Shown here: piece after piece, positions 16,831 through 20,109 of the stretch | Layout: every line of letters starts with the position of its first letter | How positions within the stretch are numbered: position 1 is the first letter of the stretch | From: Chlorobiaceae bacterium | GTDB lineage: Bacteria > Bacteroidota > Chlorobiia > Chlorobiales > Chlorobiaceae | Assembly: GCA_013334925.1 (NCBI GenBank) | Contig: JAAXWP010000028.1 | Coordinates: 1-37,768 of the forward strand | Length of the DNA stretch: 37,768 bases | Direction: 5' to 3' | The notes under the pieces: generated by a model | Databases searched by the model: none | Told to the model about the DNA's origin: nothing | What the model saw: the letters and a program-made list of their open reading frames with translations, nothing else | Position numbers and translations under genes: made by a program

Positions 16831-18249
16831 ATGGAACTGGGCAAAACGAAGAACGTGCATATCGTCGGTATCGGTGGAGCGGGCATGAGCGCCATTGCCG
16901 AACTGCTTCTGAAATCCGGTTTTTCGGTCAGCGGTTCCGACCTCTCTTCCAGTGAGGTGACCGAAAAACTGAAGGAGCACGGCGCCGTGGTCTATCAGGG
17001 GCATCAGGCCGAACAGGTAGGGACGAGCGATGTGGTGGTCTACTCTTCAGCCATTCGCCCTGAATCGAACGTGGAGATTCTCGCAGCCGAAAAACTGGGT
17101 ATCCCGGTTATCAAGCGGGACGAAATGCTTGGCGAGATGATGCGGTACAAATATGGTATCTGCGTCTCGGGAACCCATGGCAAGACAACCACCACGGCCA
17201 TGATCGCCACGATGCTCATCGATGCCGGCGAACATCCCACCGTCATGATCGGTGGTGTTTCCGACTACCTGAAGGGAAGCACTGTCGTGGGTGAGGACAA
17301 GTATATGGTGATCGAAGCCGATGAGTACGACCGGGCATTTCTCAAGCTCACCCCGACCATCGCCGTCGTCAACAGCCTCGAATCCGAACACATGGACACC
17401 TATGGCACCATGGACGAGCTTCGTTCGAGCTTCACCCAGTTTGCCAACAAGGTTCCGTTTTACGGACGGGTCATCTGCTGTGTCGACTGGCCTGAGGTCA
17501 GGCGCCTGGTTCCGAGGCTCAATCGCCGTTGCACCACGTTCGGCATAGAGGAGCCGGCTGACGTCATGGCTTCGGATATCGAGCTCGGGCAGTCCGGTTC
17601 CCGCTTTACGGTCCAGGCGTTCGGAACACGTTACGAAGATGTCCGGCTCACGGTTCCGGGACGGCACAACATCCTCAACTCGCTTGCAGCCTTTTCGACC
17701 GGTCTCGAACTCGGTCTCGAACCCGCACGCATCATAGCGGGGCTTGGCCGCTACACCGGTATGCGCCGCCGTTTCCAGATCAAGCACTCCGGCAGGGACG
17801 GGATGCTCGTCGTGGACGATTACGCCCATCATCCTTCAGAGGTCAAGGCCACGGTTCGTGCGGCACGCGAAGGGTGGAAGGAGCATCGCATCGTGGCCGT
17901 GTTCCAGCCCCATCTCTTCTCCCGGACGACGGAGTTCGCCGACGAGTTCGGCTGGGCCCTGTCGAGAGCCGATGTGATCTATGTTGCCGGTATCTATCCG
18001 TCCAGAGAGAAAGCGGCGGACTATCCCGGCATCACTGGTGAACTGGTTGCCGAGGCCGCCCGGAAGGCGGGTGCGAAACAGGTGGTCTATGTCGCCGATA
18101 AAGACGAACTGCCGACGGAGCTCAAGCCGTACGAGTCAGGAAAGAACCTGATCCTGTTCATGGGTGCAGGCGATATCACGCATACTGCAACCCGGTTCGC
18201 TGCTGAATGCGGCAGCGTTGGCGCGCAGGTCACTCCGGGAGCGCGATGA
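16831..18249 (+). CDS. murC: UDP-MurNAc:L-alanine ligase MurC
   Basis: MurC adds the first amino acid, L-Ala, to UDP-MurNAc. The 472-residue protein has the N-terminal motif [17 protein letters not shown], the ATP loop GTHGKTTTT at about 114-122, [10 protein letters not shown] and the C-terminal [13 protein letters not shown]. The ATG at 16831 was chosen because AAGGAG lies 11 bases upstream and the N-terminus matches the family; an open frame further upstream lies inside murG. The stop overlaps the murB ATG by four bases. Confidence 0.97.
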
Positions 18250-19193
18250 TCTCGACATCGGAGCTGTTTCGCCTGATCAGGGGGCCTATCGCGATAGCCG
18301 AGCCCCTCGGTCCCTATACCGGACTCCGTATCGGCGGAACGGCCGATTATTTCATAAAGCCTCGTGACCGGGATGATCTCTGCCGTGCCCATGGCTACTT
18401 CAGGAAGCATGGGTTTCCATTCTTCATTCTCGGGCGGGGCAGCAGACTGCTGGTGCATGAAAGCGGTTTCAGGGGAACGGTCATTTCGACGCAGTTTCTC
18501 GACCGGGTCGTGATCGAAGGTGACGCGGTCGAGGCTGATGCCGGGGTTCCGCTTCCCGTACTGCAGGAGCGGCTTTCCCGTTTGTCGCTCGGAGGTCTCG
18601 ACAACTTCGGTCATGGAGCCGGCACGGTAGGAGGTGCCCTGTGCAGGATCGACGGGACTGCCGATGGGGAGACTCCGGAGTACCTTGAATGGGTCGATGT
18701 GCTGCGAAACGGACGCATCAGACGGCTGCGAAACGGCGAGCTCCACTCCAGAATCGGAGCGAGGAACCTTGGGAGCGATGTCGTGCTCGGCGCCGGATTC
18801 AGGCTTCGAAGGATCTCCGTGAAGGAGCGGCATCAGGCAAAGGTTTCTCAGGTTCGTGAGGAGCTGAAAGAGTCTGGCGATTCCATCGGCCAGCCGGCGC
18901 TCTCAGGTCGGGTTTTCAGGGATCCCTGTCCGCCAGAAGGATCGTTGCCGGTATCCGCTGGCGCGTTGCTTTCTGCATGCGGTATCGAGGGTGCCCGGCG
19001 AGGAGGAGCATCTTTTGCAGCGTTCGATGCCAACCGCATCGTCAACGACGGGATGGCTACCTCTGCGGATGTGCTCGATCTGGTGCGTCTGGCAAAAGAA
19101 GCGGTACAGTCGAGATTTGGTGTCGATCTGGAACTTGAACTGGTTTTGGTAGGAAACAACATGAACGGAATTCATGCCCCTTTCAACCGATGA
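18246..19193 (+). CDS. murB: Divergent UDP-N-acetylenolpyruvoylglucosamine reductase (MurB family)
   Basis: The 315-residue protein has the MurB plan. A PCMH-type FAD domain opens it ([31 protein letters not shown], then GTVGGA). The C-terminal domain has [33 protein letters not shown] and LELEL. MurB reduces enolpyruvyl-UDP-GlcNAc to UDP-MurNAc, and the slot after murC is its normal place. Several normally conserved positions differ. The GSN of the FAD loop is GSR (R67). The NAGAYG segment after GTVGGA is absent ([10 protein letters not shown] instead). The GSxFKNP motif, whose Ser is the proton donor, reads GRVFRDP (R222). The family is clear; whether it is an active reductase is not. ATG 18246 is in an ATGA overlap with murC. 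Confidence 0.82.
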
Positions 19194-20109
19194 CATAACA
19201 CGGGAGGCTGGTGCATCCGCCCAGGACGAAGGTCAGGAGATGTCTGGAACGGGTTCCCGTACAGGCAAGGCTGGCCGCATCCTGAGGTCCCCTGCAGCCA
19301 TTGCGACCCTGCTGCTGTTGCTGATGGGTACCGTCACGGCGCTTGCCTGGTATGCCTCGGTGTGGAAACGCGAAGTCAAGGTGTCCCGGGTTGCGATCGG
19401 CGGGGTCAGTCTGCTGTCCCGGCAGAAACTCGAAAAATCGCTCTCTCCTCTGGTCGGAAGAAAGCTCGCCGAAGTCCGAGAAGAGGAGATCCGCAGACCC
19501 CTCGTTCCGGAGCCGTATATCAGGGAACTGCAGATCGTCAGGGAGCTCAATGGAACCATCAGGGTCACTGTCAGCGAACGTCAGCCATTCGCCATGACCG
19601 TTTTCCAGGGACGGCCGATGGTCATCGATACCGAAGGCATGCTGCTGCCCGATACGGGAGTCTCCGGCAGGTACCACCGGCTTCCGGTGATCTATGGTAT
19701 CGACAGGGCAGTTCCGGTCAGGGGAGGCATCTGGCGGATGCATTCGGATGACATACGGGTACTTCAGTCCATTATTTCCGCTTTTGCAGGATCCGGGTAT
19801 GCGGGATTGATGCTGCGGGAAATTCATCTTGCGCAAGGCAACCAATCATGGTTTATGGTGAGCGGCTCACCAATACGATTTATTCTTGGTAACGACGGGA
19901 ATTTTAAGGAAAAATTGAAAAAATTCGAGATATTCTGGCAAAAGGTCATTGCAAAAAAGGGTTTTGATTGCTATGAGTCGGTTGACCTCCGATTCCGGGA
20001 GAGAGTGTTCGCAAAAGAGCCTCAGATTGCGGGGGTCTCTCCGGTCCCTTCCGCACCTGCATCTGCAGCTACTGACTCGCTTCCGGTCCAGAAGACATTA
20101 CCCCGATGA
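19174..20109 (+). CDS. ftsQ: Cell division protein FtsQ/DivIB
   Basis: This 311-residue bitopic protein lies directly before ftsA. A cytoplasmic tail of about 40 residues precedes a membrane segment (SPAAIATLLLLLMGTVTALAWY). The periplasmic part opens with a POTRA-like domain (VSRVAIGGVSLLSRQKLEKSL...IRELQIVRELNGTIRVTVSERQPFA in successive strands and helices), then the beta domain with VIDTEGMLLP. FtsQ recruits FtsL and its partners to the divisome. It overlaps murB by 20 bases. An ATG at 19240 is an alternative start that would shorten the tail by 22 residues. The 3' third (from about 19880) is more AT-rich than its neighbours. Confidence 0.9.
   Translation: MPLSTDDITREAGASAQDEGQEMSGTGSRTGKAGRILRSPAAIATLLLLLMGTVTALAWYASVWKREVKVSRVAIGGVSLLSRQKLEKSLSPLVGRKLAEVREEEIRRPLVPEPYIRELQIVRELNGTIRVTVSERQPFAMTVFQGRPMVIDTEGMLLPDTGVSGRYHRLPVIYGIDRAVPVRGGIWRMHSDDIRVLQSIISAFAGSGYAGLMLREIHLAQGNQSWFMVSGSPIRFILGNDGNFKEKLKKFEIFWQKVIAKKGFDCYESVDLRFRERVFAKEPQIAGVSPVPSAPASAATDSLPVQKTLPR

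Follow-up and report, generated by a model that had tools for sequence, protein, structure and literature searches.

The MurB homologue encoded in the dcw cluster of this Chlorobiaceae bacterium, here called murB1, is probably a displaced native dcw MurB that no longer catalyzes the reaction and has been retained as a pseudoenzyme, with a second homologue elsewhere in the genome, MurB2, as the working enzyme. The gene lies in the window, the whole stretch of DNA that we analyzed (contig JAAXWP010000028.1 of assembly GCA_013334925.1, 37,768 nucleotides; all window features given here are on the + strand). Its intact open reading frame of 315 codons (18246..19193), whose 315-aa product is predicted to be non-catalytic, sits between murC (16831..18249) and ftsQ (19174..20109) in a standard dcw cluster. 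The stop codon of murC overlaps the start of murB1 by 4 nt (ATGA), and each of the nine murB1 loci in the window's genus preserves this overlap. On the 3' side, position 19174 is the listed ORF start of ftsQ, for which a later ATG at 19240 is a possible alternative. In relatives without murB1, ftsQ comes directly after murC.

A preliminary description of this DNA, made from the sequence, had called the protein clearly MurB-like, and both its domain matches (Pfam MurB_C, E 9e-17, and FAD_binding_4) and its predicted structure bear this out. The AlphaFold2 model adopts the MurB fold (pLDDT 83.7) and finds its best PDB fold match in S. aureus MurB (1hsk, TM 0.77); the alignment used as input contains active MurBs, and the model cannot judge FAD binding. 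Against the two main NCBIfam MurB equivalog models, murB1 stays under both cut-offs (167.7 versus 259 bits and 108 versus 144.5 bits), while dcw MurBs from sister families reach 306-323 bits with the NCBIfam model on which murB1 falls short.

We read the positions of the catalytic motifs from alignments with E. coli MurB and 16 dcw MurBs of other families. The FAD loop (GxGSN) keeps its glycines and has lost its Asn, which is replaced by R67 (18444..18446), so that GSN reads GSR. The NAGAYG segment is gone as well: I135-D140 (18648..18665) stands in its place, and the MNAGAYG of other MurBs corresponds to RIDGTAD. At the position of the proton donor, Ser229, murB1 carries R222 (18909..18911), which turns GSxFKNP into GRVFRDP. 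All three changes had been noticed beforehand and are confirmed by the alignment; the same description had named a Ser or Cys at the catalytic position as the observation that would speak against a loss, and it is R222 that aligns there. It had also read the YRxS motif as SRIG. The motif is indeed altered, but that reading is two residues out of register: the true counterpart is I170-G171-A172-R173, and the Arg of SRIG is not the catalytic one. I170-G171 (18753..18758) replaces the catalytic Tyr158-Arg159 (E. coli numbering), leaving Gly171 at the position of the catalytic Arg. The equivalent of Glu325, E298 (19137..19139), is retained in the window's murB1 within LELE.

Relatives at 50-68% identity have suffered losses of the same kind, and since these recur in genomes so divergent, they reflect neither sequencing error nor chance. 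Among eight complete murB1 proteins, the proton-donor position is occupied by Arg in four, Lys in two, Gly in one and Ser in one. The catalytic Arg survives in a single protein and is lost in seven, and the Glu325 position is retained in three and holds Gly or Asp in the other five. With Arg, Lys, Gly or Ser at the donor position, no substitute acid is conserved, which points to catalysis having been abandoned; losses this inconsistent are what the sequences of an abandoned active site would be expected to show, and not those of a site with a replacement acid. Of the two options offered by the preliminary description, that the lineage relies on another acid or that this homologue is non-catalytic and another MurB acts in its stead, the first is thus contradicted by the close relatives, in which the Arg and the Glu are variably lost too. 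In its widest form, this idea makes murB1 a still active MurB whose proton comes from another residue or from water. The MurB fold, the MurB_C domain and the retained E298 are compatible with it, but the changing donor position, the loss of the Arg in most proteins and of the Glu in more than half, the dispensability of murB1 and the universality of MurB2 described below together make it very unlikely. From the motif losses we infer that murB1 lacks reductase activity.

The second option, in which the work of a non-catalytic murB1 falls to another MurB, is supported by the rest of the genome (2.73 Mb, estimated at 100% completeness). The search for a second MurB with an intact motif, which had been suggested as a check, identifies MurB2 on contig C43 (L002:1459-3036; 526 aa). 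It is the single other MurB_C protein besides murB1, and the MurB_C search detected no third MurB in the genome. MurB2 shares only 28% identity with murB1 and carries the motifs GKGSNM, GYKHT, GSTFKN and LELE, with donor Ser and Glu intact. It scores above the cut-off of TIGR00179 (171.1 versus 144.5 bits) and below that of NF010480 (238.9 versus 259 bits). Its MurB domain is followed by a C-terminal domain of ~225 aa (L002:2359-3036) for which searches of Pfam and of PDB sequences gave no match and full-length fold comparison none that was useful. Across the MurB2 loci, the donor Ser is present in 60 of 60 and the Glu in all 13 that were aligned, and the position of the catalytic Arg is occupied by Lys in 60 of 60.

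MurB2 is found in all 65 Chlorobiaceae genomes with a completeness of at least 90%, and in most Chlorobiaceae genomes it is the only MurB_C protein. MurC is likewise present in 65 of 65, and murA is present in the window's genome. Because MurB2 is universal and mostly alone in a family in which MurC is also universal, it very probably supplies the reductase activity in Chlorobiaceae. Neither MurB2 nor murB1 has the full set of Arg, Ser and Glu and both occur in the window's genome, so that one could imagine a mixed complex in which murB1 supplies the residues missing from the Lys-type MurB2. We consider this exceedingly unlikely: murB1 itself is without the Arg, and a Lys-type MurB stands alone in most Chlorobiaceae and in all sampled Oligoflexia-type genomes. 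Two assemblies each contain two MurB2 copies (G181, contigs C10 and C99; G198, contigs C171 and C198). In one single-contig genome without murB1, MurB2 is seemingly split by a change of frame near residue 60-70 (G052:C1:1076033-1077596), possibly a sequencing error.

The two MurBs have different phylogenetic positions. In our tree, murB1 groups with the dcw MurBs of the sister families f2 and f3, and MurB2 nests among MurBs of Oligoflexia and Silvanigrellales. A scan of genome contigs recovered the full two-domain architecture of MurB2 in Silvanigrellales and its MurB part in Oligoflexales. The replacement of the catalytic Arg by Lys (GYK) is shared by nine of nine Oligoflexia-type homologues, each of which is the one MurB_C hit of its genome (genome completeness not given). 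The simplest reading is that MurB2 was transferred into an ancestor of the Chlorobiaceae, a direction that we infer from the nesting in a quick tree.

We scored the presence of murB1 in 69 murC-ftsQ intervals. The gene occurs in nine, all within the window's genus; eight copies are complete, and the ninth runs off the end of its contig. Three genomes from a different clade retain an in-place ORF of 181 aa that comprises domains I and II and lacks domain III. The remaining 57 intervals have no murB1, which shows that its role, if any, is not essential across the family. Trees of FtsA and MurC imply that murB1 was present ancestrally and was lost several times. One genome without the gene, G032, still holds, between murC and ftsQ, 29 nt from the 3' end of murB1 (L041:2496-2524, reverse strand; alignment score 48 against a shuffled maximum of 31). 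G032 alone exceeded all shuffled controls, and candidate scars in other relatives lacking murB1 were at or near chance. A 3.7-kb contig, G149:C12 (L042), carries a second murC-murB1 pair that closely resembles the one in G199; this contig is probably foreign sequence in the bin.

Where murB1 has survived, it is retained by purifying selection. It has an open reading frame in each of the nine loci, whose proteins are 50-68% identical to that of the window. dN/dS (NG86) is about 0.15-0.28 overall; restricted to residues 1-110, it is about 0.1 to 0.18. Most pairs have synonymous sites close to saturation, which makes these ratios approximate, and most weight lies on two close pairs that remain far from saturation: G149b/G199, with a dN/dS of 0.19, and G060/G075, the closest pair of remnants, with 0.048 (both NG86). 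The constraint is also distributed differently along the protein. Mean pairwise identities for domains I, II and III are 0.79, 0.57 and 0.60 in murB1, against 0.60, 0.67 and 0.77 in MurB2 and 0.55, 0.57 and 0.64 in the f2/f3 MurBs. Conservation in murB1 peaks in domain I and no longer in the catalytic domain III. In the window's gene, domain I spans residues 1-83 (18246..18494) and is the most constrained part, and domain III, the substrate and catalytic domain or MurB_C region (residues 216-303, 18891..19154), is relaxed relative to it. Several independent losses, one truncation in place, a deletion scar and the accumulated motif losses would also be seen if murB1 were a decaying, functionless relic, an ordinary pseudogene in progress. 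Open frames across such divergence, dN/dS far below 1 and a level of conservation in domain I above that of active MurBs disfavor pure decay, and we regard this explanation as unlikely.

A further protein family is an independent indication that the useful part is domain I. Most genomes of a second genus (g2; loci L115-L118 and L120-L125) encode a separate protein of ~84-86 aa (e.g., L120:1501-1758:-) that has no Pfam match above the cut-off and shows homology to residues 1-83 of murB1 along its entire length (hhalign E 6e-15). Compared with MurB2, the native dcw MurB line is the closer relative of this family. Its gene adjoins an acyltransferase gene (weak TIGR00530 match) and a second conserved gene at each of the nine distinct loci that we examined. 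We tentatively propose that, in green sulfur bacteria, domain I serves a non-catalytic function that has outlived the native MurB enzyme, with the domain preserved in the full-length pseudo-MurB, the 181-aa remnant and the ~84-aa protein; this is a possibility rather than an expectation. As a scaffold or regulator, the domain may connect division with MurC, MurB2 or the synthesis of the envelope.

We propose the following scenario for a displaced, non-catalytic murB1. The Chlorobiaceae would have acquired a MurB2 related to the MurB of Oligoflexia and Silvanigrellales, which would have taken over as the reductase that forms UDP-MurNAc. No longer needed for catalysis, murB1 may then have lost the catalytic Arg, the donor Ser and the NAGAYG loop, as well as the Glu in several genomes, and have been deleted or truncated in many lineages. 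The surviving copies, presumably translationally coupled to murC through the ATGA overlap, would have been kept by purifying selection as pseudoenzymes, with the constraint shifted to domain I. The most likely mechanism would be a non-catalytic role of domain I in binding or scaffolding, with MurC, MurB2 or another Mur or division protein as candidate partners. Naming MurC in particular is a guess, and a doubtful one, although MurC would be the first partner to test.

These results have several implications. Chlorobiales offer a graded natural series of what may follow when a foreign-type homologue displaces an essential cell-wall enzyme, in which the native gene is intact (sister families), non-catalytic but conserved, truncated to domains I-II, or deleted. 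The position of murB1 in the division cluster invites its annotation as the organism's MurB, while it is the Lys-type MurB2 that probably does the work. MurB2 in turn suggests that Lys can stand in for the catalytic Arg across a whole clade. Should domain I have a function in its own right, a hidden non-catalytic role of MurB is possible in other bacteria too.

According to one paper, murB has moved out of the dcw cluster in the FBC superphylum (PMC8871954), a statement qualified by the dcw murB genes that we find in other families of this phylum. One such MurB elsewhere in the phylum (L026; G039:C3:301896-302780) has Trp at the donor position (AGWIFKNP). Its genome contains a further MurB match, on contig C12, and this could be a parallel case. 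Among open-licence papers, we found no report of a MurB pseudoenzyme and nothing direct on paired murB genes or on dcw clusters of green sulfur bacteria.

Among known MurBs, the proton donor is Ser in type IIa and Cys in type IIb (PMC3689657). murB1 resembles the type II enzymes (S. aureus 1hsk, Listeria 3tx1) in fold, domain order and matches to FAD_binding_4 and MurB_C, but is without the catalytic Arg, the Ser or Cys donor, the NAGAYG loop and the Asn of GSN. By its murC-ftsQ position and by the tree, it is the orthologue of the dcw MurBs of the sister Chlorobiales families f2 and f3 (L010-L014, L021), which, unlike murB1, retain the catalytic motifs (with Cys as the donor in L021) and have domain III as their most conserved part. 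MurB2 and the Silvanigrellales MurB belong to the same MurB family and are the predicted carriers of activity; MurB2 differs from murB1 in its Lys for the catalytic Arg, its extra ~225-aa C-terminal domain and its clade. The closest general parallel is with pseudoenzymes, which, like murB1, combine a homologous fold and lost catalytic residues with continued purifying selection.
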